This document shows positions 6,571-31,347 of a stretch of 32,846 nt of DNA, one piece after another. Below the pieces are notes generated by a model. It ran no database searches and was not told the DNA's origin. It saw only the letters and a list, made by a program, of their open reading frames with translations. How positions within the stretch are numbered: position 1 is the first letter of the stretch; the number at the start of each line of letters is the position of its first letter. The stretch is from Desulfobacula sp. (lineage in GTDB: Bacteria > Desulfobacterota > Desulfobacteria > Desulfobacterales > Desulfobacteraceae): positions 1 to 32,846 of the forward strand of contig NZ_JAIOSW010000093.1 of NCBI RefSeq assembly GCF_021107415.1, read 5' to 3'. The position numbers and the translations under genes were made by a program.

Positions 6571-8378
6571 AAAAGACAGAATCCGTATTTGAGACGATTC
6601 CCCAGGTGTTTAACCAGACGGTCAGTCAAAACGGCTCAAGAGTTGCACTGCGAACAAAAGACTTGGGCATCTGGCATGATATCACCTGGAATGAATACCA
6701 TGACAAGGCAAAAAAGGTGGGATGCGCCCTGGTATCCATGGGATTTGAAAAAGGGGATGCTGCCTGTATTATTGGTGATAACGCCATTGAATGGGTGATG
6801 GCAGATCTGGGGATTCAGTGCGTGGGCGGGGTGTCCGTTGGGGTCTACGCCACCAATGCCTGGCAGCAGGTGGAGTATGTGGTCAATCATTGCGATGCCA
6901 GGTTTTTGTTTGTGGAAAATGAAGAACAACTGGACAAGTGGTTGATGTTCAGAGAGAAGACACCGCTGTTAAAAAAGGTAATTGTCTGGGACACAAAAGG
7001 ACTTTTGGCATTCACAGATCCCATGGTCATGACCTTTGATGAATTGATTGAAAAAGGCAGCAAAGCCACTGAAGAGCATCCAACGCTGTTTAAAGACAGG
7101 CAGGCCAAAGTCAGGCCCGATGACCTTGCTGTGATCATTTATACCTCGGGTACTACAGGTCCCCCTAAAGGAGCCATGCTCACCCATAAAAATGTGACAT
7201 GGATGGCCGGCGCTGTTGAGTCAATTATTGACATATATAAAAAAGATAATGTCTTGTCCTTTCTGCCGTTGTGCCATGTTTTTGAACGGCTTTTCACGGT
7301 TTTTATCCATTTAAAATTTGCCTATATTGTTAACTTTGTGGAAAAGCCGGATACAGTCATGCAAAATATGATGGAAGTCTCTCCGACCATTGGATATGCC
7401 GTCCCAAGGATTTGGGAGAAATACTATTCCAATATCATGATTAAAATGGATGATGCCACATGGTTTAAGCGGATTGTTTTCAAGGCTGCCCTGGAAATAG
7501 GAAAAAAAAGGGCTGATCATGTAATGAATTTTAAATCCCTTGGTTTTTTTCACAGAGGCCTGTTTTTTATTGCCTGGTTTGCCGTTTTCAGAAAGCTTAA
7601 AGAGCGGCTTGGGTTTGAAAATATCCGGGTGGCTATTTCAGGGGCTGCCCCCATATCAAAAGAGGTGTTGCGCTTTTTTCAGTCCATTGGAATGAACCTG
7701 ATTGAAGGGTATGGACAGACAGAAGGAACAGGGGTTGCCACGCTTTCACCGGAGGATAAGACCAAATTTGGTACCGTTGGTATTGCCCTTAATGGAGTCG
7801 ATATTAAAATAGCCCCCGACGGCGAAATTCTTGTCAGATCTCCAGCGGTATTTAAAGGCTATTATAAGAGTGAAAAAGCAACCGCTGAAACCATTATTGA
7901 CGGCTGGTTGTATTCAGGAGATGTGGGGCAGATTGATGCAGACGGATTTTTAAAAATCACAGACCGCAAAAAAGATATTATCGTAACAGCGGGTGGTAAA
8001 AACATCACCCCCCAGTATATTGAGAACAAACTCAAGGCAAGTATTTATATCAATGATTCTGTTGTGATTGGCGACAGGCGAAAATTTTTATCCTGCCTGA
8101 TTATGATTGATGAAGACAATGTGGTGAAATTTGCCCAGGATAACAAAATTCAGTTTTCAACCTATAAAGATTTAACCTGTGACGAACAGGTGATTGCCCT
8201 TATTGACCGGGAAGTTAAAAAGGTCAATGAAACCCTTGCACGGGTTGAAAATATCAGAAAGTTCACCCTTCTTCCCAAGCGACTTTACGAAGAGGATGGC
8301 GAAGTGACTCCCACCATGAAAATTAAGCGAAAATTTGTCAACAAGGCGTTTAAAGATTTGATTGAAGCCATGTATTAA
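6543..8378 (+). CDS. AMP-dependent long-chain-type acyl-CoA synthetase
   Basis: ATP-dependent acid:CoA ligase of the ANL superfamily, 611 residues, close in length to long-chain acyl-CoA synthetases. It activates a carboxylic acid through an acyl-adenylate. Visible motifs are the P-loop YTSGTTGPPKG (200-210), the A5 motif GYGQTEGTG (Tyr at 390), YSGDVG with the ribose-binding Asp at about 460, and the hinge TDRKKDIIVTAGGKNITP before the small C-terminal domain. Start 6543 has AAAGG about 9 nt upstream. A start at 6567 would give an ATGA overlap with livF and is the main alternative. Its place at the end of the transporter operon suggests that it activates the imported substrate, possibly an aromatic or fatty acid. 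The ligand specificity is not readable. Confidence 0.88.
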   Translation: MEKKESMAMKKTESVFETIPQVFNQTVSQNGSRVALRTKDLGIWHDITWNEYHDKAKKVGCALVSMGFEKGDAACIIGDNAIEWVMADLGIQCVGGVSVGVYATNAWQQVEYVVNHCDARFLFVENEEQLDKWLMFREKTPLLKKVIVWDTKGLLAFTDPMVMTFDELIEKGSKATEEHPTLFKDRQAKVRPDDLAVIIYTSGTTGPPKGAMLTHKNVTWMAGAVESIIDIYKKDNVLSFLPLCHVFERLFTVFIHLKFAYIVNFVEKPDTVMQNMMEVSPTIGYAVPRIWEKYYSNIMIKMDDATWFKRIVFKAALEIGKKRADHVMNFKSLGFFHRGLFFIAWFAVFRKLKERLGFENIRVAISGAAPISKEVLRFFQSIGMNLIEGYGQTEGTGVATLSPEDKTKFGTVGIALNGVDIKIAPDGEILVRSPAVFKGYYKSEKATAETIIDGWLYSGDVGQIDADGFLKITDRKKDIIVTAGGKNITPQYIENKLKASIYINDSVVIGDRRKFLSCLIMIDEDNVVKFAQDNKIQFSTYKDLTCDEQVIALIDREVKKVNETLARVENIRKFTLLPKRLYEEDGEVTPTMKIKRKFVNKAFKDLIEAMY

Positions 8379-9622
8379 GCTTTTCTTAAACGGCGTATTT
8401 TTTTAAAATAGGTATTGCGGCAAAGATTTTCAACTTCCAGCATGGTGGCAAAAGCCTCGGAAAAATTATCTTTTCCGGTTGTAAAAAGGCCGTGGCCATA
8501 AACAATGGCAGAGTTTGTCTGTTCAAGCGCACGAGGCAGTGTATTACAAAGACCGAAAGGACCTGTGCCGACTTCACCCGGTACAATAGGAGTGCCCTCC
8601 ACAAATCTTTTTTTCGGACATTTGATATGGCATTGTTCCTTAAAAGCACAGGCAGCTTTTTCAACAGGATCGCAATCCATGGATAAGATGACAGAGAATT
8701 TAGGGTGTCCGTGCAGAATGGCCTTGCACCCGGTGCGGGAAATGGTTTCCAGATGAGCGGTCAGTTCACTTGAGGCGGTAAGCCCGGCACTGGTGGAACC
8801 GTCCATTGGAACCGGATCAATGCATCCCCTGAGCTCATCCAGAGAACTCCCGGTTTGACTGATGTAAAGCGTCTTGTTCCAGAAATAGGAAACATTGCCG
8901 AAAAAGGAATCCACAAGACCGTATTCAACCGTTTTTTGACCGGCCTCAATAATGGCGGAATAAACGGTTTCTTCATTTGGAAAGGGAGAAGGGATAAGTT
9001 CGGGCAATGTTGTTTGTATGGGTTCCAGATATGGGATGACGGCGTCAAACAGATCGTGGGCATCGTCTGTGGCAAATCCTGTTTGAAGTGCTTGAAGATA
9101 GTCGGTAAAAAATTTAATAAAATTTGCAAAGCAGACAGAGCTTATGGTTACAAATCCCTGTTCAGGGCTGACCAGACCATGGGCGACAATTGCAGGGCCC
9201 TTGAAATTTTTATTGCTTTTTCCAGGTGCAATGATCACGCTTTTTCTTTTTTTTAAAGCCTGAATGATTTGATCAGCACTAAATTCATTAATCACGGGCA
9301 GATCATGGAGAAAAGTTCTTGTTTCACAATCTTTTGGCTGGATCAAACCAATAGAGTTATTGGGAGATTTATGGGTGGATTCAAGGGCGCTTTCTGCTAA
9401 AAAGCGTATGAGGCTGCCATAGGGTTCTTTGGGCCTTAAAAAAACCAGAGAGTTTATATTCAGTCCTTTAAAAACATTTTCCAGAACACTGATCTCATCT
9501 GCCGGCCGGTTCCAGACAAGGGTATCATCCAGCCCGCCAATCAAGGGCCGGGAAGGGCCAAAAGTTTCTCCCAGTCCTGCTTGAATCAGTTTGTCTGCAT
9601 ATTTGTTTACAAGTTGTTCCAT
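8375..9622 (-). CDS. Class II aldolase/adducin family protein
   Basis: 415 residues. The C-terminal half (about 215-405) is a class II aldolase domain: GNVSYFW, then LYISQTGSSLDEL, zinc-ligand histidines in LHGHPKF (304 and 306) and YGHGLF (377). The family includes fuculose- and rhamnulose-phosphate aldolases, which cleave sugar phosphates to a lactaldehyde-type product, and some decarboxylases. The N-terminal 200 residues are not in short aldolases; the stretch GPAIVAHGLVSPEQGFVTI there looks like a degenerate relative of an aldolase fold, which is my inference. The start overlaps the end of the aldehyde oxidoreductase gene by 16 nt, so the two are co-translated. Its stop overlaps that of the convergent ligase gene by 4 nt. 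The substrate is unknown. Confidence 0.75.
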   Translation of the reverse strand: MEQLVNKYADKLIQAGLGETFGPSRPLIGGLDDTLVWNRPADEISVLENVFKGLNINSLVFLRPKEPYGSLIRFLAESALESTHKSPNNSIGLIQPKDCETRTFLHDLPVINEFSADQIIQALKKRKSVIIAPGKSNKNFKGPAIVAHGLVSPEQGFVTISSVCFANFIKFFTDYLQALQTGFATDDAHDLFDAVIPYLEPIQTTLPELIPSPFPNEETVYSAIIEAGQKTVEYGLVDSFFGNVSYFWNKTLYISQTGSSLDELRGCIDPVPMDGSTSAGLTASSELTAHLETISRTGCKAILHGHPKFSVILSMDCDPVEKAACAFKEQCHIKCPKKRFVEGTPIVPGEVGTGPFGLCNTLPRALEQTNSAIVYGHGLFTTGKDNFSEAFATMLEVENLCRNTYFKKIRRLRKA

Positions 9623-11373
9623 AAAAGTCCAAGTGTTTGTGCTTTTTTCTTTTTGGGCAGACCATTGGTGGTAAGCCCTCGAATATCATAATACTTTTTT
9701 CTGGCATCCAGAAATGCATCTCGGTTAATGGGGGGAATATGGATATTATTTGCGCTGGAACCAGACTCTGTGAAAAATCGATCCGGAAGATCATCGTCCT
9801 TGACGTCAAATTTGTTCAGCGCATTGATAATTCGTTCGTTATAATAAATGCATTCCCCTTTTCTAAGAAGATCCTGGGCACTGGTTTCAATTCCTGTAAC
9901 CGCTTCATAGGCAGTTGCATACTCTTCCAGGCTCGCTGCAAAAAAAGTAAACTTACAGGCAATAAGCGAGTCCACAACGGCATTCAAATCTTCGGCAATC
10001 TTTATGATCCTGGCTTTGCCGCTGAAACTGAAACGATCAGTGGCCACAGGTTTCCTGAAAATTTCATGACTGATGGGATAGGCACGCAAATGACATCCGC
10101 CCCGGGTGGACAAGGCATATCCCAATGCCATGCCATAAGCCCCCCGGGGATCATAGGCCGGAAGCTCCATCCCTTTGACAGCCATAGCAGCTTGAGGGCT
10201 TCCCATTTTTTTTGCATAGTGTTCTGCGCCCATGGCAAGGTCTTTTCCTTCACCTCTTCCAAGCGCCATGTCATCTAAAAGAGATAAAAGACTGTCTGGT
10301 GTGTAATCAAGGCCGGTTATTTCACGCCTGCAGGCTAAAGTTGAAGCCGCAGATATGGTATCCATGCCAAAATAATTGCATCGTTCATTGGCCTTTACGA
10401 CAAGCTCGGTATCCATGCAGCCGATCAGGGCTGTAAAATGAGACATGGTTTCAAACTCCGGCATGGCAAAAGACTTTTTATTTTTTGTTCCGATTTTTTT
10501 GCAAAGAATATGGCAGCCAAGGCACCCGTGTTTTTTAGGAGCATAGGTTTTGGTGTAGGCGGCTGCATTAAGTCTGGATGCATGCTCAAAACAAGTGCGG
10601 CGAAAATTATCCGTGGGCATCATTCTGCGGTTGTCCATAAGATCATATACCGCTCCTGTACCAAGGCAGGTAAACCCGAATTGGCCCATCAGTGCAGGGG
10701 AAGCAGCTGTAAGTCTTAAGATGTCCTCCCTTGCCTGCTTCAGTTTTTTTAGGTCTTTAACCTTACAATGACCAGTGCCATCCACCAGAAGATATTTGAT
10801 TTTTTTTTGGGCAAGGCAAAGTCCAAGTCCGCTTCTGCCGGCAGCAAAATGGCGGTCCACTATTATGGAAGCAAACCGCACACCATTTTCAGCTGCAGGC
10901 CCAATGGATGCTAAAGATGCATTCCCCGGCCCGATTTGTTGATGGACAGCATTTGTATCAAGTCCCCATAATTCGGTGGCATCTTTAAACTCTACCAGGT
11001 TATCCTTTATTGTAATGCCCACAGGTGTTTTACTTTTGCCTTTGATGACAATGCCGTCCCAGCCTGCACGCTTAAGCCGGGTGGCAAGTTTCCCGCCAAC
11101 CGAGGAATCTCCCACAAGTCCTGTGAGGGGTGATTTTGAAAGGATATGAGTTCGCCCTGAAGTGGGAGTAATAGTGCCTGTAAGAGGTCCTGTAAATATA
11201 CAGATCATCATGTCGGGGTGATCCCAGGGCAGGGTTGCGCACTGTCTTAAGTATTTACCTCCAAATCCTTTACCGCCGACATATCGGTTGTAAACATCAA
11301 GGTCGGGTGTCTCAACCTCAATGTTTTTTTTTGTCAGATCAATTACCAGTATTTTTCCGGTCCATCCGTACAT
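9607..11373 (-). CDS. aor: Aldehyde:ferredoxin oxidoreductase (tungsten enzyme)
   Basis: 588 residues, usual length for AOR-family tungstopterin enzymes, which oxidise aldehydes to acids with ferredoxin or run in reverse. It starts MYGWTGKILVIDL as in the family and has the pterin-binding segments GGKGFGGKYL and SPLTGLVGDSSVGG. The [4Fe-4S] ligands are visible as C284-x2-C287-x3-C291 (HGCLGCHILCKK), with the last ligand C473 in DSLIACKF. Overlap with the aldolase gene suggests that the oxidoreductase handles an aldehyde released by that protein, or protects against it. The gene is a cytoplasmic, single-subunit type with no neighbouring electron-transfer subunit. Confidence 0.9.
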   Translation of the reverse strand: MYGWTGKILVIDLTKKNIEVETPDLDVYNRYVGGKGFGGKYLRQCATLPWDHPDMMICIFTGPLTGTITPTSGRTHILSKSPLTGLVGDSSVGGKLATRLKRAGWDGIVIKGKSKTPVGITIKDNLVEFKDATELWGLDTNAVHQQIGPGNASLASIGPAAENGVRFASIIVDRHFAAGRSGLGLCLAQKKIKYLLVDGTGHCKVKDLKKLKQAREDILRLTAASPALMGQFGFTCLGTGAVYDLMDNRRMMPTDNFRRTCFEHASRLNAAAYTKTYAPKKHGCLGCHILCKKIGTKNKKSFAMPEFETMSHFTALIGCMDTELVVKANERCNYFGMDTISAASTLACRREITGLDYTPDSLLSLLDDMALGRGEGKDLAMGAEHYAKKMGSPQAAMAVKGMELPAYDPRGAYGMALGYALSTRGGCHLRAYPISHEIFRKPVATDRFSFSGKARIIKIAEDLNAVVDSLIACKFTFFAASLEEYATAYEAVTGIETSAQDLLRKGECIYYNERIINALNKFDVKDDDLPDRFFTESGSSANNIHIPPINRDAFLDARKKYYDIRGLTTNGLPKKKKAQTLGLLWNNL

Positions 11374-12672: not shown

Positions 12673-15600
12673 ATGGGGAATCTTCAATATAACAATACTG
12701 TTGCAGTTGTCGGCATGGCATGCTGGTATCCGGATGCGAAATCATTAAAAGAACTTTGGGAAAATATCCTGGCCCGGCGAATTCAGTTTAGAAAATTTTT
12801 AGATCAGCGAATGCCGATGGCCGAGTATCATCATCCAGATCGCAGTGAGCCGGATAAAACATATGGAAGCCGGGCTGCTTATATTGATGGCTTTTCCTTT
12901 GACTGGGCCGCTCATCGAATACCTTTGTCAACCTTTAAGGCCATGGATACCTCTCATTGGCTTGCATTGGATATTGCATTAAAGGCTGTGTCAGACGCGA
13001 GCTATGCAAAGGAAACCCTGCCACGGGACAAGACCGGGGTTATCATTGGAAATACATTGACCGGGGAACAGTCAAGAGCCGGTGTTATGAGGCTGAGATG
13101 GCCGTTCGTAAAAAAAGTTATATCAAAAACCCTGGTTTCCCAGGGCTGGTCTTCCCAGCAGATTCAGATGATAACACAAACAGCTGAATCCAATTTTAAA
13201 TCCGTTTTTCCGCCCGCGAATGAGGATACACTGGCAGGGGGCCTTTCCAATACTATTGCCGGACGAATCTGTAACTATCTGGATTTGCATGGCGGCGGAT
13301 ATACGGTTGATGGTGCCTGTTCATCCTCAATGATAGCAGTGGCAACTGCTGCAAACGGCCTGATCAGTGGTGATCTTGATCTGGCACTGGCCGGAGGGGT
13401 GGATATCAGCCTTGATCCGTTTGAAATCATAGGGTTTGCCAAGACAAATGCTTTGACCATGCATGAAATGACGGTATACGATCGTCGTGGAAGCGGCTTT
13501 ATTCCCGGCGAAGGCTGCGGATTTGTAGTGCTTAAACGATTGGAAGATGCAAAAAGGGACAAGGATTATATTTATGCGGTTATTAATGGATGGGGTATCT
13601 CATCAGACGGTGGTGGAACAGGCCTTACAGCACCTCTGGCACGTGGTCAGGCAAGATCAGTCCGGCGGGCTTATGACCGGGCGCCTTATGACATGGATTC
13701 TATTGATTTTATTGAGGGCCATGGCACAGGGACTACTGTAGGAGACAAGGTCGAACTGAGCTCAATATCACAGGCTTTGGAATCCGCACCCGAGGTAAAG
13801 GGTCGTTGCTGCGGTGTTACATCGCTTAAGTCCATCATCGGACATACAAAAGCGGCCAGCGGTATCGGGGCTTTTATTAAAGGAGTTCTGGCGGTTAACC
13901 GCCGTGTTATTCCGCCCATAGCCAACTGCAAGGAACCCCATGGCATATTTACAGATCAGGCACTTCATCTGTATCCGGTTTTAACCGGTGAATCAAGACC
14001 GGATGAATCCGTTATCCGGGCCGGTATATCCTCCATGGGATTTGGCGGGATCAATTGTCATATTACCATTGCATCTGAAGATCCTCCAAAATCCGAACTT
14101 AAGCCTCTTGTGGATGAAGATGCATTAATGGTTTCCAATCAGGACACGGAAATCTTTTTATTTTCCTATGATAAGCATGAAGACCTTTTTGATCGGATAA
14201 ACGAAATTCTGGCTTATAGTAATGCCATCAGCCAGGCGGAATTGACGGATCTTTCCTTTAAACTTTGCGGGTTGGTTGATCCTGGTGTCAGGTTCAAAGC
14301 GGCTGTTGTCGCGGGGAATCCTGACGAATTGACAACCCGGCTGAATGATCTTTTAAAAATAATTGAAGAAAATCCAATCCCGCAACAGGTTGTTTTTAAC
14401 CAGTCTCATACTGCTTTGTTTGGCTGTATAACCATGCCTCTTCGTATCGGCATGCTTTTCCCAGGGCAGGGATCCCAAAAAATGAATATGGCGCATGTAC
14501 TGATAAGACGGTTTCAATGGGCAAAAAAAATGATGGACAAGGCGGATAAGCTGCTTGAAACTATTGGTGGTTCACCGGTCAGCCAGACCATCTATCATTC
14601 ACTTGAAAGAGCAGCCGGTCCGGGGGTGGCAGAGAATTGGTTTAGAAATTTATCCAATACTCAAAATGCCCAGCCGGCTATTTGTGCGGTATCTGCGGTC
14701 TGGCTTGAATTTTTGAAAAAACTGGGGATTACGCCTGTTGCCTCAGGCGGGCACAGCCTGGGCGAATTAACCGCGTTTTATGCAGCACGCGCATTTGATT
14801 TTTCAGAACTGATTCAACTGGCGGCTGTCCGTGGCCGTGCCATGGCTGCCGGGGATGATCAGGCAGGCACCATGGCCAGTCTCAGATGTACAAGAGAAAC
14901 AGCAGAAAAGCTTGTCGGAAAAGCAGCAGAATATGTTGTTCTTGCCAATATCAACGGGCCGGAGCAGATGGTCGTTTCAGGGAGCCTGGCCGGTGTGGAT
15001 GAGGTGGCCAAACTGGCTGAAGAACAGCAGATCAAGATTACCAGACTGGAAGTTTCCAATGCCTTTCATTCCAGGATGATCCAGAATGCTGCCGACATTC
15101 TCGCGGATACGGATATACTTTCTGAGCATCCTGCGTCGCTTGATATTCAATTATTTTCCAGCAGAAATGGTCAGGAAGTGACATCATCCACATTATTAAA
15201 AAAACATTTTGCAGATCAGGTGGTGTCCCAGGTGGATTTTCCAGCCCTGATACAGGCAATGTCCAAGGCATGCGATTTGTTTATTGAGGTTGGATCGGGA
15301 CGGGTGCTCAGCGGACTTACCAATGCAATTAACGGTGATAACGGCCCCAGGTGTCTGCCTGTGGAATCTTTGCCGGGTGCAGACAAGGATTTAAATCAGC
15401 TTTTGGCGGTTCTGTTTGTGCATAATGTCGACATTAACTGGGACATTCTGTTTGCAGAACGTCTGGTCAGACCCTTTGTTTCTCCAGACGATAAAGTGTT
15501 TATCGATAATCCCTGCGAGCGTGAGATCGAAGGTGAAACAGCAGCACCGGGCAGTTTGTCTGACAGTCCTGCTTCAGGAATGATAGACCAATATCTTATA

Positions 15601-18600
15601 CAGACAGGACAATTTGATGAAGCCCAAATCAAAGACTATCTCATGGCCCGTGGAGGTTTTCTCGCGGATGTAATCCGGGCGGACGTTGATAATCAGGGTA
15701 AGGATGTAGAATGGGGGAGACCTGAAAAAGGGATTTTATCTAAAATGCTTGCATCTGAAGAAGCAAAATCTGAGGCTGAACCTTCCGATACATCCATTGA
15801 AGAGATTTTGTACAGTATTGTTCATGAAATTACAGGCTTTGCTTTGGAAACTCTTTCACCTGGATTAAGGCTTTTGGATGATTTAAACATGGATTCCATA
15901 AAAGCCGGAGACATGATTGTCAGATTTGCAGGCCGTGCCGGGGCAAAGGGGAATATTGATGCCGGACAGATGAGCAATGTCACGCTGGGTGAGGTTTTAA
16001 ATACGGTTTCTGCCCTGATTCCTGACAACGTGTCGTCATTGGTGCAAAGTGATATAGATGTGGCAGACATACTGACAGCCCAGATTTCTGATATGACCGG
16101 GTATTCTCCGGATTCCCTCAAGAGCGGGATGCGGCTTCTGGATGATTTGAACATGGATTCCATCAAGGCCGGTGATCTGATGGTCAGACTGATTAAGAAA
16201 ACCGGTATCCGTCAGGATCTTCTGGACACGTCGCGTTTGACAAATGCAAGTCTGGAAGAAATCGCACAGGCCTTTGATGCCTTGATGGATACAAAAGGGG
16301 CATCACAGCCGGTACCACAGCTGGATGCTGCATTATCCGCATTAGGCCCGGCACAGCTTGGGAAAACATGGGTGCGTGAATTCTCAGCAGAATTTATGGA
16401 AAAAGAACTGCCGTCAGGCATTGAAACCAGTGACTGGCAGAATGCCAATATTCTTATCCTGTACAGCAAAGGAATGCATACCTTAGCCGATACTCTGAAG
16501 GACAAGTTTTTGGACTGCAGCGCGCAGGTTAGAATTGAGGATTATGAGCACGCAATTGAAAACCAGTTGACCCAAAATCCTAATTTTTCTCATTTTATTG
16601 CGATATTACCGGCTGATCTGGAAGAGACGTCAAAGGATATTGAGGCGCTTGAACAGACCATATATTATCTTGCTTCGGTTGCCGGCCTGCCGTCAGCAAT
16701 ACAGCGGCCCATCACCCTGGCCTATATTCAATTCGGCCGCGGATTTTTCGGAAAATCTGGAGAATTGGTTGATTATCGAACATGTTGTGCAGCAGCACTT
16801 GCCAGGAGTATCCATCTGGAACGGACGGATCTGCTGGTCAGGGTTCTGGATTTTGATAAGGATGTCGATTCTGCCGAGGTTTCAGACAGGATTATTAAAG
16901 AATTGTCTTCAGAAGAATCCTTTGTGGATGCTGGCTATGATGCAGGGTTTGTTAGACGGGTATTTGTTCAGAAACCGCTTGATCCGTCCGGATATCAGCC
17001 CCGTGGCATTAAATGGAAGTCAAAAGATGTGATCCTGGTGACCGGAGGGGCTAAAGGTATTACGGCATCATGCGCTTTTGACCTGGCTCAAAATACCCGG
17101 ACCCGTATGGCCCTGGTCGGACGATCGCCTCTGCCTGAAGAGGATGTGTCAGGCAATGAGATGGTTCAAGTACTTGCACGATATGAAGAAAACGGGCTTG
17201 AGGCCCGGTATTTTTCCTGTGATGTTTCAGATCCTGATGCAGTGGATGCGCTTGTCAGAACCATTGAAAAAGAAATGGGGACGGTCAGGGGTGTGGTCCA
17301 TGGCGCGGGGTTGAATACTCCCCGTTTATGCCGGGATGTTTCAGCAAAAGATGCATTGTCAGAAGTCCATCCAAAAATTATGGGCGCCCTGAATATCATC
17401 CGGGCACTTTCGGACGAACCTTTGAAACTGTTTGCGGCCATGAATTCAATTATCGGGGTGACGGGCATGCCCGGTAATGCCTGGTACGGATTTTCCAATG
17501 AAGTTTTAGACCTGATTCTCAGGCATTATCAGGCTCAGCATGCTTCAACCCAGATCATTTCCGTTGCTTACAGTATCTGGGGAGAGGAAGGCATGGGCGC
17601 GCGCATGGGAAGTGTTAATGTGCTTAAACAAAAGGGTATTGATGCGATTCCTTCTGATGAGGGGATTAAACGGTTCACCCGTCTTTGCCTGAAATATCCA
17701 GGATCGGCTTTAGTGGCTGTTACAGCCCGCCTGGGCGGTCTGGATACATTCCGGATTCCCGCTCTTCCACGTCTGGCCAATGCCCGTTATCTTGAAAAAG
17801 AGGTGTATGCTATTCCGGGTGTGGAATCTGTGTTTCAAGCCCACCTGAACCTGGAAACAGATCTGTATCTGGTTGATCATAATTTTGACGGATCGCTGCT
17901 GCTGCCCACGGTTTTAGGATTGGAAGCCATGGCTCAGGTTGCAGCCTGTACTGCCGGACTTGCGCATTTTAGTTCACGGGTCAGGATAGAAAATATCCGT
18001 CTGGAACGTCCAGTTACGGTTGATCCAAGGGATGGCGCAGATATTTTGATTCGTGCTTTGGTGATGGAAAAACAAAACCTGGCGGCTCAGGATACTCTGA
18101 GAATCAGAACCTGGCTGTCAAAATCCATGAGTGATCTGGATGTTGGATACTTTTCCGCTGAGTTTGTTCTGGGATTAGAAGATGAACCAAACAATGGAAT
18201 GATTGAAAAACCGGATCATCCATTACCTATTGATCCGGTTTTGGATCTTTACCGGCCGTCCCTGATGTTTCAGGGACCGCGTTTTCAGAGAATGCACAGG
18301 ATCTGGCAGATCAATGAGAAAGGTGACGAAGCAAATGGAGCCATCTTTGAGACTCGCATCCTTGCTGACAAAGAAACACAGGCTCAAGCGTTTGACAGAC
18401 CGGAACACCGGAATTTGGTGTTGCCTGATCCGTTTTTTAATGACACGCTTTTGCAGTCTGCGCAGATGCTGACGCCCAAAACAGCATCTTTGCCGGTTTT
18501 TATCAAACGCTGGGATATTTTTCCATGTGAAGAGCCAACACCTTTATCCGTCCTGGCCCAGGTAGAGATGGGTCAAAGACATGAAAAAGAATTTGATACC

Positions 18601-20433
18601 ACAGTCACTGCAGTGGACAGCCAGGGACGCGTCATAGAGATGCTTGAACATTATACACTCAGAATTCTGAAAATGCATGATGATAATCCGTGTGCCAGGG
18701 ATTTGACAGCGCCTGAAAACCGTGACATCCAAATTATTGAAAATACGTTAAAGGACTTGGGCCAAACCTTCGGGTTTGAGCAGCCTGCTTTGGATCTGAT
18801 GTATATTCAAGGCATTCATGATCTTAAGAAAAAGGATCGTCATGAAAAACAAATGCCATTGATACAAAATATTCTGGAAAAGGTTCTTCAAGATGAATCT
18901 GATGACAAACATTCCTGGGAAGTGACATGGACTGATGATGGAAAACCCGTGATTAAAGGGCTTGAAAATATCATGATTTCATTGTCACATACGGACCGGT
19001 TATGCATCTGCTGCGCAGGACAAGGTTCCCAGGGGTGTGATATTGCTCCGGTCACTCCAAGGGAACGCGATCACTGGGAGTCACTTCTGGGAAAACCGTT
19101 TGCACCAGTGCTTAAGCAACTGAAAAAAGACTCAGATGACCTGGATATTGCCGGTACCCGGTTGTGGGCAGTAAAAGAGGTGCTCTATAAACTTGGTGAA
19201 AAAGACCCTGAACCGCCATCAATCGAAACAACAGGCGACAAGGCTGTGCTGTTTGAATCAGTCACTGCCAGGGGACCAGTTCACATTGTTACAATTTTAT
19301 TGGAACTGACCTGGGGCTCTCAATTGATACTGGCATTAAAAGTTGTTCCAAAAGCGCTTGATCTTAAGGACATCCCGGAAGGACAAGGATATGATGCACT
19401 CAAACAACACATGGAGATTCTGACGGGCCCCCAGGGCCAGAACTGTATCTCCATACGGCTGCCTGTGACTTTCAGGCCCAATGCTCAACTCAGCCGGACA
19501 GTTTATTTTTCCAATTATATGTTCTGGGCCGGAGAAATCCGTGAAGCATCCATCTGGCCAATATTGAGAAAAGTCGGCGAGCAGTTCAGTTCAGGTGAAT
19601 GGGGATCAGTGACCAATCATTCCCGGCTGCGTATTCTCGGGGAGGCCACAGCCCAGGATCAGATTGAAATCCGGTTGTGGGCGGATGACAACTACGGCCC
19701 GGCCGATTCCACCATGGATTTGAAATTTGATTTTTTAAAAGTTCTTCCCCATGGAAAATTCGAACGCCTGGCCTTTTGTGAACAGACTGTGACCTGGGTT
19801 AAAATTATTGATCACGGCATTGTAGCTCCAGAGCCGTATCCTGATTATTATTATGAATTTGTGAAAACAATGCTGCCGCAGAATGATAATCCCAAAACAC
19901 CGCCTGCGTTTCCTGAACCATTAGAGGATCTGCATAAAGATGATCCGGATGACAAATTCCAGTATGAAGCCACACCAGGGCCCAAGGTTGAGCCGCTTTT
20001 ATTTGAGCAGGTTATTGAAACCTCTCTGGATCACTCCAATCTGGTAGGAAATATTTATTTTGCTAATTATTACCTCTGGCAGGGAACGGCCCGGGATCGT
20101 TATTTTTATCAGCTGATTCCAGAGTATTATCAGGGCACTGGGGAAAAAGGGGAACTGCTGTGTCTGGAAACCCGCATAAACCATTTAAGGGAGGCTATGC
20201 CGTTTAACCGCATTATGGTGACCATGGCGCTTAAGACATTGACCCGGTCCAGGGCCATGTTTTATTTTGAATATTTCCGTGTGGATCAAGATGATACAAG
20301 GGTAAAACTGGCCTATGGTGAACAGGATGCAATCTGGGTAACCAGAGACAAACAAGGGAACCCCGCCCCTGCGCTTTTCCCTTTACAGGTGGTGAATGCC
20401 CTGGAAAAGGCCATATCCCCTGAAAAATTATAA
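12673..20433 (+). CDS. Enediyne-PKS-like iterative type I polyketide synthase with C-terminal PPTase and two hotdog thioesterase-like domains
   Basis: 2586 residues. Domains in order: ketosynthase (about 10-460; Cys216 in VDGACSSSM, His350 in EGHGTGT, His391 in IGHTKAA); acyltransferase (about 590-900; Ser695 in GHSLG, His799); two ACPs with DLNMDSIKAGD (Ser1075 and Ser1163, 88 residues apart); ketoreductase (TGGAKGI at 1457, Ser1592, Tyr1605); a double-hotdog dehydratase (His1736 in VDHNFDG, Asp1924); a phosphopantetheinyl-transferase-like domain (SLSHTD at 2103, Asp2123, WAVKE at 2165); and two CalE7/DynE7-like hotdogs (about 2260-2400 and 2445-2575; NLVGNIYFANYYLWQG in the second). Order and motifs up to the PPTase match enediyne PKSs, which make a polyene on one iterating module. 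Fused tandem thioesterase-like domains are unusual. No enoylreductase is seen, so a linear polyene is the likely product. SD: AAGGAGC. Confidence 0.85.
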   Translation: MGNLQYNNTVAVVGMACWYPDAKSLKELWENILARRIQFRKFLDQRMPMAEYHHPDRSEPDKTYGSRAAYIDGFSFDWAAHRIPLSTFKAMDTSHWLALDIALKAVSDASYAKETLPRDKTGVIIGNTLTGEQSRAGVMRLRWPFVKKVISKTLVSQGWSSQQIQMITQTAESNFKSVFPPANEDTLAGGLSNTIAGRICNYLDLHGGGYTVDGACSSSMIAVATAANGLISGDLDLALAGGVDISLDPFEIIGFAKTNALTMHEMTVYDRRGSGFIPGEGCGFVVLKRLEDAKRDKDYIYAVINGWGISSDGGGTGLTAPLARGQARSVRRAYDRAPYDMDSIDFIEGHGTGTTVGDKVELSSISQALESAPEVKGRCCGVTSLKSIIGHTKAASGIGAFIKGVLAVNRRVIPPIANCKEPHGIFTDQALHLYPVLTGESRPDESVIRAGISSMGFGGINCHITIASEDPPKSELKPLVDEDALMVSNQDTEIFLFSYDKHEDLFDRINEILAYSNAISQAELTDLSFKLCGLVDPGVRFKAAVVAGNPDELTTRLNDLLKIIEENPIPQQVVFNQSHTALFGCITMPLRIGMLFPGQGSQKMNMAHVLIRRFQWAKKMMDKADKLLETIGGSPVSQTIYHSLERAAGPGVAENWFRNLSNTQNAQPAICAVSAVWLEFLKKLGITPVASGGHSLGELTAFYAARAFDFSELIQLAAVRGRAMAAGDDQAGTMASLRCTRETAEKLVGKAAEYVVLANINGPEQMVVSGSLAGVDEVAKLAEEQQIKITRLEVSNAFHSRMIQNAADILADTDILSEHPASLDIQLFSSRNGQEVTSSTLLKKHFADQVVSQVDFPALIQAMSKACDLFIEVGSGRVLSGLTNAINGDNGPRCLPVESLPGADKDLNQLLAVLFVHNVDINWDILFAERLVRPFVSPDDKVFIDNPCEREIEGETAAPGSLSDSPASGMIDQYLIQTGQFDEAQIKDYLMARGGFLADVIRADVDNQGKDVEWGRPEKGILSKMLASEEAKSEAEPSDTSIEEILYSIVHEITGFALETLSPGLRLLDDLNMDSIKAGDMIVRFAGRAGAKGNIDAGQMSNVTLGEVLNTVSALIPDNVSSLVQSDIDVADILTAQISDMTGYSPDSLKSGMRLLDDLNMDSIKAGDLMVRLIKKTGIRQDLLDTSRLTNASLEEIAQAFDALMDTKGASQPVPQLDAALSALGPAQLGKTWVREFSAEFMEKELPSGIETSDWQNANILILYSKGMHTLADTLKDKFLDCSAQVRIEDYEHAIENQLTQNPNFSHFIAILPADLEETSKDIEALEQTIYYLASVAGLPSAIQRPITLAYIQFGRGFFGKSGELVDYRTCCAAALARSIHLERTDLLVRVLDFDKDVDSAEVSDRIIKELSSEESFVDAGYDAGFVRRVFVQKPLDPSGYQPRGIKWKSKDVILVTGGAKGITASCAFDLAQNTRTRMALVGRSPLPEEDVSGNEMVQVLARYEENGLEARYFSCDVSDPDAVDALVRTIEKEMGTVRGVVHGAGLNTPRLCRDVSAKDALSEVHPKIMGALNIIRALSDEPLKLFAAMNSIIGVTGMPGNAWYGFSNEVLDLILRHYQAQHASTQIISVAYSIWGEEGMGARMGSVNVLKQKGIDAIPSDEGIKRFTRLCLKYPGSALVAVTARLGGLDTFRIPALPRLANARYLEKEVYAIPGVESVFQAHLNLETDLYLVDHNFDGSLLLPTVLGLEAMAQVAACTAGLAHFSSRVRIENIRLERPVTVDPRDGADILIRALVMEKQNLAAQDTLRIRTWLSKSMSDLDVGYFSAEFVLGLEDEPNNGMIEKPDHPLPIDPVLDLYRPSLMFQGPRFQRMHRIWQINEKGDEANGAIFETRILADKETQAQAFDRPEHRNLVLPDPFFNDTLLQSAQMLTPKTASLPVFIKRWDIFPCEEPTPLSVLAQVEMGQRHEKEFDTTVTAVDSQGRVIEMLEHYTLRILKMHDDNPCARDLTAPENRDIQIIENTLKDLGQTFGFEQPALDLMYIQGIHDLKKKDRHEKQMPLIQNILEKVLQDESDDKHSWEVTWTDDGKPVIKGLENIMISLSHTDRLCICCAGQGSQGCDIAPVTPRERDHWESLLGKPFAPVLKQLKKDSDDLDIAGTRLWAVKEVLYKLGEKDPEPPSIETTGDKAVLFESVTARGPVHIVTILLELTWGSQLILALKVVPKALDLKDIPEGQGYDALKQHMEILTGPQGQNCISIRLPVTFRPNAQLSRTVYFSNYMFWAGEIREASIWPILRKVGEQFSSGEWGSVTNHSRLRILGEATAQDQIEIRLWADDNYGPADSTMDLKFDFLKVLPHGKFERLAFCEQTVTWVKIIDHGIVAPEPYPDYYYEFVKTMLPQNDNPKTPPAFPEPLEDLHKDDPDDKFQYEATPGPKVEPLLFEQVIETSLDHSNLVGNIYFANYYLWQGTARDRYFYQLIPEYYQGTGEKGELLCLETRINHLREAMPFNRIMVTMALKTLTRSRAMFYFEYFRVDQDDTRVKLAYGEQDAIWVTRDKQGNPAPALFPLQVVNALEKAISPEKL

Positions 20434-29558: not shown

Positions 29559-29849
29559 TCAGCAGCACCCGCCGTTGCCACAGGATGCGTTTTCTTTTCC
29601 TTTTATCCAGACCTGGATAATATAGGAAGCTCAGCCGACCCCCGGACTGACGGATATAGCCTGGGAGGGACAATTGTTAACACATGCACCGCATTCCATG
29701 CAGGCATTAAAGTCAACAATATGGGCCTTGTTCTGGCTCATTTCAAAAACGGCCTGGGGACAGACTTCAGTGCACAAGCTGCAGCCGATACATTTTTCTT
29801 CATCAAGTACCAGGGTTGATACATTATCTAAATGTCTTAAATCTTGCAT
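29559..29849 (-). CDS. hgcB: HgcB, ferredoxin-like mercury-methylation protein, predicted selenoprotein (UGA at 29631-29633 = Sec73)
   Basis: HgcB is a small ferredoxin that works with HgcA to methylate Hg(II), passing electrons and probably mercury. The start MQDLRHLDNVSTLVLDEEKC is as in the family. Two [4Fe-4S] motifs follow: C20-x2-C23-x2-C26-x3-C30-P and C50-x2-C53-x2-C56-x3-C60-P. After SPGVG an in-frame UGA stands at codon 73, exactly where HgcB has its conserved lone Cys (GVGCA). Beyond it the frame reads ASYIIQVWIKGKENASCG-NGGCC-stop, which gives the family length (96 residues) and its C-terminal Cys pair (95 and 96). A SECIS-like hairpin follows the UGA. Conventional gene calling would end the gene at 29631. 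The ATG lies 23 nt after the hgcA stop; an in-frame ATG at 29918 inside hgcA is rejected. Confidence 0.88.
29603..29620 (-). promoter_or_regulatory. Bacterial SECIS-like hairpin in hgcB
   Basis: On the minus strand TTATCC-AGGTCT-GGATAA follows the UGA. Six perfect stem pairs are seen (eight if AG/CT pair), with AGGUCU at the apex, the same loop as the E. coli fdhF SECIS. The loop Gs are nucleotides 18 and 19 after the UGA, against 19 and 20 in fdhF. It lies wholly within the extended coding frame. Confidence 0.82.
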
Positions 29850-29872: not shown

Positions 29873-31066
29873 TCAAAATGCAGAATAAATCCATAGCCCG
29901 GATGAAATCACCAGGCAAACCAATTGCACAGGAATGTACCGTTTCATTTCTTTTTCAACCCCTGAAGGTGATGTAAACGGTGTTGTCCCTGTGAAATTCA
30001 TGGCCAGAAAAGAGCTGATGGTCACGCTGAACAAAAAGAGAGCCAGACAGTCGGCTATTCCATGAATAGCAGATGTCATGAATACCAGCAGGAGAATAGC
30101 GAACATACTTCCTGAGATGATCCCTTTGAGAGCAAATTCCCTGGAGGGGATAAAGGGAAGCAGGACCGGAGTAACAAATGCGCCTGAAAATATTCCTGCT
30201 GCAAGGGCAAAAAAAGAAACAACGCCTCTTTCCCAGGCCATGGAAAAAGAAAAAATACCCGGTCCGAAACCTGAAATGATAAACAGGACAAGTGCTGTGA
30301 TCAGTGCTGGTTTCAGCACGATTTGAATCTCCACAGGTGTCAGGATAAATCGTTCATACAGATCAAAGGTGACCTGTCTCATTTTTTTGTCTGCTTTTTT
30401 GTTATTCTTTAAAAAAAACGGGATATCCTTTGCCCGTATGGGGCCATAGATCACCCTGAATCCTGACTGCTTTTTGACATCTTTAGCCGATATACCGGTT
30501 GCTCCCAGTTGGGGAACAATGATCTGTTTATGGTCTACAATATTTTCAAGGGAACTATCTTTAATCCTCTTCACGAGTTCCCGGGTTGAAAAAGTTCCCT
30601 TTCCTGCTGCGCACCAGACATTGATCCCTTTTGTATCCAGTACCAGAATCCATGCATTGATGTCGGCCAGCTCTTTTCTCAAATGATCAAACGTCAATTT
30701 AAAATTTGCGGTTACAAGTACCTCACAATTTTTATCCGGTTTTCCAATGGCATAAAGCCCGGGAGCCACCGTATATTTATACCGGTTGATACCGCATCTG
30801 ACATAAAAGCTTGAAAAAAGGTCATCTTTTCCCAGCTTTGGTTTAATGACAGGAATAAGTCCCGCATTAGTTTTTATAAACTTGTCCACATAGGAGCACA
30901 ACTTATAGCCTGGTTCTTCATAGTCTGCCATGGGGTTGGAAGGTTCAGCCGAACAGCTTGAACTGATCTCATCCATGGAGGACATGAGATTAACCCCGGA
31001 GGTTGATATTTTCAGACCTTTCTGAGAAGGGGGCCCATTACACCCCCAGCCCTCTATTTTGTTCAT
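29873..31066 (-). CDS. hgcA: HgcA, corrinoid-dependent mercury methyltransferase
   Basis: 397 residues. HgcA carries a methyl group on a corrinoid and donates it to Hg(II) at the membrane. The diagnostic cap-helix motif NVWCAAGK is present (149-156), with Cys152 the expected cobalt ligand. The corrinoid domain runs to about 230 and is followed by about five membrane spans (from PALITALVLFIISGF to LVCLVISSGLWIY), as in known HgcA. The N-terminal 55 residues, with Cys, Ser and Gly, are a variable extension. The ATG at 31066 is chosen because GGAG lies 6 nt upstream; an ATG at 31078 overlaps that ribosome site and would add four residues. It lies directly behind the ArsR-type gene and in front of hgcB. 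The UGA stop is a true stop, as another stop follows two codons later. Confidence 0.95.
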   Translation of the reverse strand: MNKIEGWGCNGPPSQKGLKISTSGVNLMSSMDEISSSCSAEPSNPMADYEEPGYKLCSYVDKFIKTNAGLIPVIKPKLGKDDLFSSFYVRCGINRYKYTVAPGLYAIGKPDKNCEVLVTANFKLTFDHLRKELADINAWILVLDTKGINVWCAAGKGTFSTRELVKRIKDSSLENIVDHKQIIVPQLGATGISAKDVKKQSGFRVIYGPIRAKDIPFFLKNNKKADKKMRQVTFDLYERFILTPVEIQIVLKPALITALVLFIISGFGPGIFSFSMAWERGVVSFFALAAGIFSGAFVTPVLLPFIPSREFALKGIISGSMFAILLLVFMTSAIHGIADCLALFLFSVTISSFLAMNFTGTTPFTSPSGVEKEMKRYIPVQLVCLVISSGLWIYSAF

Positions 31067-31080
31067 TTGTTTCTCCATCC

Positions 31081-31347
31081 TTATAAGTTTTGGATATATT
31101 GCTTAAATTTATTTAAAACGGTTTTATCTACACAAAAGTAGGTTTTGGGGCCTTCGACTTCTCCACAGACAATTCCGGATTCTTTTAACAGTTTCAGATG
31201 CTGGCTGATAGTGGATTGGGAATAAGGAAAGATATTGACAATTTCTCCACAAACGCAGGTGTTGATATCAATAAGGTGCTCAACAATTTTCATCCGTGTC
31301 GGATGTCCCAGTGCTTTAAATATTTTTGCAAGTTGTTCCGTGTTCAT
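31081..31347 (-). CDS. ArsR/SmtB-family metalloregulator of the hgcAB operon
   Basis: 88 residues, a compact winged helix-turn-helix. N terminus LAKIFKALGHPTRMKIVEHL is typical of ArsR; the recognition helix is about 43-60 (SQSTISQHLKLLKESGIV). A Cys pair in the metal-sensing helix reads CVCGEI (Cys31 and Cys33), close to the ELCVCDL site of ArsR/CadC-type sensors; Cys61 and Cys72 could add ligands. Such proteins repress until a metal or metalloid binds. ArsR-like regulators next to hgcA are known in other mercury methylators. The start overlaps the stop of a Cys-rich small ORF as ATGA, and the stop lies close to hgcA, so the unit is co-transcribed. A matching inverted repeat overlaps the operon promoter. 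Confidence 0.88.
   Translation of the reverse strand: MNTEQLAKIFKALGHPTRMKIVEHLIDINTCVCGEIVNIFPYSQSTISQHLKLLKESGIVCGEVEGPKTYFCVDKTVLNKFKQYIQNL

Follow-up and report, generated by a model that had tools for sequence, protein, structure and literature searches.

Selenocysteine almost certainly occupies the key position of the mercury-methylation ferredoxin HgcB in a lineage of Desulfobacula-like bacteria

Ordinary HgcB, as found in Desulfovibrio desulfuricans ND132, combines two CxxCxxCxxxCP motifs with a lone cysteine (Cys73) about 12 residues after the second motif and a C-terminal cysteine pair, and is encoded next to hgcA. Cys73 matters for methylation, as the first-pass annotation of the DNA studied here had held: in ND132, no methylation is left after the C73A substitution, and removing the two end cysteines together lowers it by 95%; in a proposed model, the end pair delivers Hg(II) to the corrinoid and hands methylmercury to Cys73 for release (PMC7305189). 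Selenocysteine (Sec) has already been linked to this system. In particular, the selenoprotein table of a 2026 review includes "Mercury methylation ferredoxin HgcB, NF040864, GVGU," credited to Haft & Gwadz 2023 (PMC13188914), and the latter paper (J Bacteriol 205:e00259-22) is cited elsewhere as a source on HgcA and HgcB variants that may be selenoproteins (PMC11588087); in the portion of PMC12013277 available to us, it appears in the reference list only. The other Sec-bearing mercury-methylation protein is selenoprotein HgcA (NF040863, CU motif; PMC13188914), in which Sec lies in the N-terminal Cys-Cys motif of HgcA, in contrast to residue 73 of HgcB. For the bacterial SECIS (bSECIS) element, the same review gives a general model, in which the UGA is closely followed by a stem with a small apical loop headed by GG, and a set of rules, namely, a loop of 3-9 nt, an upper stem of 4-16 bp, a G in the first two loop positions, and a spacing of 16-37 nt (PMC13188914).

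Here, we analyzed a 32,846-nt stretch of DNA (hereafter, the window), which very probably carries the arsR-hgcA-hgcB cluster of a Desulfobacula-like bacterium, with hgcB being a selenoprotein gene in which Sec is inserted at UGA codon 73 via a SECIS (Table 1). The protein encoded in the window is a genuine member of an already named family, sharing with the listed selenoprotein HgcB both the family model and the residue, GVG-U (PMC13188914), and differing from the case of Haft & Gwadz 2023 in that this instance comes from an unannotated contig. The statement of the first-pass annotation that no selenocysteine-containing HgcB had been described hence does not hold (PMC13188914, PMC11588087). 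The lineage-wide fixation, frozen codons, and HgcA motif pattern described below were not met in those parts of the literature naming selenoprotein HgcB that were available to us, and Haft & Gwadz 2023 may contain some of this.

Table 1. Features of the window and their coordinates
Feature	Position	Strand	Remarks
ArsR-family regulator gene	31081..31347	minus	2 bases upstream of hgcA; PF01022, 44.7 bits (cut-off 22), searched from codon 2
hgcA, corrinoid partner (NVWCAAGK)	29873..31078	minus	Cys form; N-terminal motif reduced to SCS; NF040863, 434.6 bits (cut-off 275)
hgcB, 96 codons + stop (UGA)	29559..29849	minus	in-frame UGA at codon 73; NF040864 above cut-off across the UGA
UGA codon 73, predicted to be read as Sec	29631..29633	minus	corresponds to Cys73 of ordinary HgcB; TGA in 27/27 nearest readable loci
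Post-UGA part of hgcB, ASYIIQVWIKGKENASCGNGGCC-stop	29559..29630	minus	includes C-terminal Cys pair; constraint assessed by pN/pS
Predicted SECIS, whole stem-loop with weaker lower helix	29597..29628	minus	lower helix: 72.7% of cells paired
Predicted SECIS, upper hairpin	29603..29620	minus	7 bp UUAUCCA/UGGAUAA, loop GGUC; follows bSECIS rules (PMC13188914); 7/7 pairs invariant in 55 distinct sequences
Predicted SECIS, apical loop GGUC	29610..29613	minus	17 nt after the UGA
Gene with DAC (diadenylate cyclase) domain, PF02457	28343-29542	plus	convergent to hgcB, 16 bases between ends
Aldehyde ferredoxin oxidoreductase gene	9607-11373	minus	overlaps the next gene
Class II aldolase/adducin-domain gene	8375-9622	minus	overlaps the preceding gene
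2586-residue multidomain ketosynthase/acyltransferase/ketoreductase/dehydratase protein	12673-20433	plus	resembles polyunsaturated fatty acid or polyketide synthases

The ArsR-family gene probably belongs to one operon with hgcAB. On the minus strand, hgcB translates from 29849 to 29559 as MQDLRHL...SPGVG-U-ASYIIQVWIKGKENASCGNGGCC-stop, a product of 96 residues ending in GNGGCC, so that our reading of the strand agrees with the first-pass annotation, which had reported a UGA at codon 73 in a frame running on to GNGGCC-stop and had equated this codon, correctly by both position and residue number, with Cys73. The NCBIfam HgcB model NF040864 matched the product with 121.3 bits (cut-off, 99) over residues 5-96, spanning the UGA; in the query (P0001), the UGA was replaced by Cys, and the sequence extended four codons beyond residue 96, the end stop included. 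As in ordinary HgcB, there are two 4Fe-4S motifs, with CMECGAC, and terminal cysteines, and hgcA adjoins the gene. By contrast, the lone Cys after GVG that characterizes the family is a UGA here and is present only if Sec is counted as the homologue of Cys, as in the selenoprotein subset; an in-frame UGA that lines up with a Cys conserved among homologues, as seen here, is what a bacterial selenoprotein gene is expected to contain. By analogy with the HgcB family, the protein would be needed for mercury methylation. Both hgcB and hgcA of the window terminate with UGA, as does hgcB in many relatives, and UGA is, therefore, not reassigned in the window.

The frame following the UGA is translated and under strong purifying selection. 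For 60 Sec genes, including that of the window and excluding the separate case L210, pN/pS was 0.09 in codons 74-90 compared with 0.23 in codons 59-72, before the UGA, and reached 2.4 and 3.0 when the reading frame was shifted by one and by two bases. The genes ending in CC number 55, the window's among them, and the remaining 5 have lost one or both of these residues or stop early. Coding constraint thus continues past the UGA, as expected of a selenoprotein gene. In one metagenome-assembled genome (G011; L011/L135), a second in-frame UGA is located near the end of HgcB (ENASC-U-DSGCC), representing Sec, an early stop, or an error.

The constraint on this region reaches down to synonymous sites in a hairpin, which follows the bSECIS rules in its loop, 7-bp stem, and distance from the UGA. 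When minimum-energy folds were examined, leaving aside the upper limit on the stem and the energy rule, the rules were satisfied by 59 of 60 Sec genes (those of the class sample described below plus the window) vs 25 of 81 Cys genes. Codons 77-79, 81, and 82 (ATT ATC CAG, TGG, ATA), which form the stem, are identical in all 61 Sec genes compared (the 59 of the class sample, the window, and L018); a further Sec gene outside this set, L086, has CAA for Gln. Synonymous difference (pS; 60 genes) is 0 in the stem codons vs 0.75 in codons 83-90, the third base of the loop codon is variable, and the codons beyond the stem vary freely. In the 54 Cys genes with YII at the same place, Ile77, Ile78, and Ile82 are each encoded by three codons and Gln79 by two. 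Residue 80, the codon of which supplies the second loop G, is Val in 59 and Gly in 2 of the 61 Sec genes, in contrast to Cys genes, where it is mostly Thr or Ser (57 of 81; Gly in 14); a G-initial codon at this position places GG at the head of the loop. Judging from these sequences, the hairpin with its frozen stem codons is a bacterial SECIS. Furthermore, the conserved IIQxWIK appears to encode a near-palindrome already, suggesting that few changes were required other than at residue 80 and in the choice of codons. Two other lines of evidence were considered and rejected: the hairpin region folds with an ordinary energy (z -0.69), and covariation was not found in the upper stem among the 55 distinct sequences because the stem never varies, and the freezing of synonymous sites was used in its place. 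The SECIS of Escherichia coli fdhF likewise carries a small GG-headed apical loop on a stem after the UGA; the element in the window is more A-U rich, encodes IIQVWIK of HgcB, and has a UGA-loop distance of 17 nt.

To assess how widespread the UGA is, we surveyed proteins, loci, and genomes. Among 120 listed homologues, out of 795 from a protein search, 16 are predicted proteins of 72-74 aa, and all 16 end at PGVG, indicating that gene callers cut them at the UGA codon, as the first-pass annotation had anticipated. In one homologue, P0003, which is 81% identical and was seen as protein only, position 73 is taken by Leu (SPGVGLATYIIQVW...), possibly the result of a Sec codon having mutated from TGA to TTA. 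Public genomes yielded 573 stretches with hgcA, of which the 80 best were retained, and hgcB was readable in all but 3; codon 73 is TGA in 27 of these 77 loci, namely, the best-ranked L002-L028, and Cys in 50, with the sequence of the top-ranked locus, L001, ending before hgcB. A cultured, named strain, Desulfocicer vacuolatum DSM 3385 (L026), is among the carriers of TGA. In a class-level sample of 389 genomes, hgcA was present in 173, and 148 hgcA loci were read (leaving out unlisted matches and the broken hgcA of G363, which is in two pieces), 8 of them without readable hgcB. The remaining 140 genes split into 59 with TGA at codon 73, from 58 genomes, and 81 with Cys, from 79 genomes, with no genome encoding both. 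A separate pattern scan of the 389 genomes recovered the Sec form at 64 sites in 62 genomes; one of these sites is a partial hgcB copy in G155 (L270:1259-1382, minus strand), where the 3' end of Sec-hgcB alone is repeated ~7 kb from the full gene, a partial duplication.

At the phylum level, 76 of 395 sampled genomes had an HgcB match at E 1e-22 or better, a threshold at which weaker HgcB goes unseen. Matches without an internal TGA cannot be Sec73, and the 13 that contain one comprise the already known G003 (Sec73), G036 with Cys73 (L191), and 11 others with Cys73, in which the TGA is the end stop except in L265. Thus, no Sec73 beyond G003 was found among the 76 strong matches of the phylum sample. 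In L265 (G646), HgcB with Cys73 has an in-frame UGA in the C-terminal tail (PPDUSDGCG), possibly a different Sec site.

The descent of Sec-HgcB was traced on an HgcA tree of 175 rows, drawn from 229 candidates (the window plus 148 and 80 loci) after removal of those without hgcB, with <300 residues of HgcA, or identical to an included row; the tree covers HgcA from residue 53 onward and was obtained by a quick maximum-likelihood search without bootstrap. In this tree, 60 of the 61 Sec rows group in a single clade (SH-aLRT 99), the nearest outgroups of which are Cys rows. Because L210 (G157), the remaining Sec row, sits apart beside a Cys row, at least two changes are forced by the starred branches. 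G157 has tRNA-Sec. Before residue 73, HgcB of L210 shows mean identities of 61.2% to Sec and 61.4% to Cys forms, its top ten matches all being Cys forms, and after residue 73, its identity to Sec forms reaches 100%, a composition that would reflect either a second gain of Sec or the transfer of the 3' part. The picture emerging from these comparisons is that Sec73 has become fixed throughout an entire lineage of bacteria.

The machinery for Sec insertion is present in most of the relatives' genomes. Rfam detected no tRNA-Sec in the window itself; in the 28 genomes of L001-L028, SelB scored above the cut-off in 22 and tRNA-Sec was found in 23. Neither was above the cut-off in three of them: G001 is a 1.5-Mb draft without readable hgcB, G011 has a piece matching SelB toward its C terminus (profile 306-581, 49.5 bits), and G018 has a fragment that may be SelB or another elongation factor. 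In the class sample, tRNA-Sec was found in 51 of the 58 genomes with Sec-HgcB, 7 having none, vs 61 of the 79 with Cys-HgcB. The missing machinery in some Sec-HgcB genomes is likely due to draft gaps. As a discriminator of the two kinds of genomes, the machinery was rejected as weak; being common in Cys-HgcB genomes too, tRNA-Sec permits Sec but does not predict it.

The partner protein HgcA shows a pattern of its own. At most Cys-HgcB loci, a Cys-Cys motif (PCCGPP) or its Sec form, the CU of the known selenoprotein HgcA, is located in the N-terminal extension of HgcA. Rows with Cys-HgcB include 75 with CC, 30 with CU, 8 with Cys but no pair, and 1 too short to be classed, whereas among the 61 rows with Sec-HgcB, 11 have CC, none CU, 40 Cys without a pair, and 10 no Cys; CC or CU is, accordingly, retained in 11/61 vs 105/113 rows. 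Sec-HgcA (CU, e.g., PCUGPKP or SCUP) thus occurs in 30 of the 175 tree rows, all 30 within the 113 Cys-HgcB rows and none together with Sec-HgcB, and the two selenoprotein forms are mutually exclusive in this row set. On the tree, the presence of CC or CU requires 10 changes within the Sec rows (n = 61) and 8 within the Cys rows (n = 113); Sec-HgcA itself requires 7. When motif loss in HgcA was tested with phylogenetic correction, there were only 2 independent pairs (median p 0.5), since Sec-HgcB arose about twice, and the pattern is, therefore, a lead and not a test. For the same reason, a plain Fisher value of 4.6e-22, calculated with a narrower first motif rule, was rejected as evidence of dependence; that rule had left 25 Cys and 3 Sec rows unclassed, many of these Cys rows having CU, and the final counts apply one rule to all rows, with one row still too short.

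Sec-HgcA was found at L047, L050, L059, L063, L067, L070-L074, L076, L080, L223, L231, and 16 of the 23 loci L236-L258, and HgcB is the Cys form at these loci wherever it was read. Some of them (L047, L063, L070-L073, L076, and L080) have HgcB with a CGC context in place of PGVGC. In L040 and L042, CU is found further upstream, next to an ordinary CC or single C in HgcA, and L238, L245, and L257, all with Cys-HgcB, have an in-frame UGA near the HgcA motif but outside any CU. A possible, if doubtful, interpretation is that selenium enters one mercury relay at two alternative points, the CU of HgcA or, in the Desulfobacula lineage, residue 73 of HgcB, never both in the rows read, with the HgcA pair becoming dispensable after the arrival of Sec73 and being lost repeatedly; the two sites would act in series or as substitutes, and methylation would be selenium dependent.

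Given that TGA and TGC or TGT differ by a single base and that the window is probably a metagenome contig, the UGA might be taken for a sequencing or assembly error, or for a fresh nonsense mutation in a dying hgcB. This reading, to which we assign a negligible probability, is contradicted by the recurrence of TGA in each of the 27 nearest loci with a readable hgcB and in 59 of the 140 genes of the class sample, across many assemblies including that of Desulfocicer vacuolatum DSM 3385, as well as by the strong selection on the post-UGA codons and the frozen stem codons. Nor is it at all probable that the UGA is an ordinary stop, leaving a functional 72-residue ferredoxin and a conserved tail as a leftover. 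Although both 4Fe-4S motifs precede the UGA and predicted proteins of 72-74 aa populate the databases, a leftover tail would hardly show a pN/pS of 0.09 in frame and above 2 in the shifted frames, or retain the terminal Cys pair in 55 of 60 genes, and ND132 needs both Cys73 and the pair (PMC7305189). A similarly slight chance attaches to the decoding of UGA as another amino acid, such as Trp or Cys, through a reassigned code or a suppressor and without selenium: P0003 with its Leu indicates that a residue other than Cys can occupy position 73, but the use of UGA as a stop in hgcB and hgcA of the window and in hgcB of many relatives, the excess of bSECIS-compatible folds in Sec over Cys genes, and tRNA-Sec and SelB in most relatives' genomes all speak against it.

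A different kind of alternative accepts Sec insertion as real and assigns to it a mainly regulatory role, with Sec chemically equivalent to Cys and with HgcB and methylation tracking selenium status. Efficient UGA recoding requires sufficient selenium (PMC4513850), and the Leu73 homologue would also fit; however, Sec occupies the one essential lone Cys, and the eroded Cys-Cys motif of HgcA in these lineages suggests that the metal relay has been altered, albeit with two independent contrasts only. On balance, we consider this explanation unlikely, while granting it more weight than the preceding three. Coding past the UGA, a conserved SECIS, Sec machinery in most relatives' genomes, and lineage-wide fixation were all observed here, and the central claim of the first-pass annotation, that Sec replaces Cys73, is strongly supported by the UGA survey, the HgcA tree, the stem codons, tRNA-Sec, pN/pS, and the bSECIS rules. 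From sequence data, the bacterium almost certainly builds selenocysteine into the key site of HgcB.

Under this selenoprotein reading, a ribosome meeting the UGA at codon 73 would be assisted by the GGUC loop 17 nt on, which would recruit SelB with tRNA-Sec, so that selenocysteine would be inserted in the window organism, giving a full-length HgcB of 96 residues that contains both 4Fe-4S motifs, Sec73, and the cysteine pair at the C terminus. Failed insertion would yield a 72-residue ferredoxin devoid of Sec73 and the pair. No activity is expected of this product, given that the model strain methylates poorly or not at all once Cys73 or the two end cysteines together are lost. Sec73 would most likely assume the role of Cys73, holding, as a selenolate, Hg(II) or the methylmercury handed over by the C-terminal cysteines. 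A selenolate binds mercury more tightly, and Sec73 may accordingly bind Hg more tightly and with altered kinetics. Selenium-dependent methylation is a prediction of this scheme.

Methylmercury is the product of HgcAB, and residue 73 is essential to HgcB (PMC7305189); if a whole lineage carries selenium at this residue, methylation should follow selenium supply. Annotation that cuts hgcB at 72 residues may misjudge the gene as broken. The genera in question are active in natural settings: expression of hgc genes in samples from the Baltic Sea was assigned to one Desulfobacula and one Desulforhopalus metagenome-assembled genome (PMC9494745), and among the loci of the present survey, Desulfobacula carries Sec-HgcB (e.g., L003) and Desulforhopalus carries Sec-HgcA (L070). 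The Sec-HgcB pattern deserves experiment, and with Desulfocicer vacuolatum DSM 3385, a named strain, the question of selenium can be put to a direct test.
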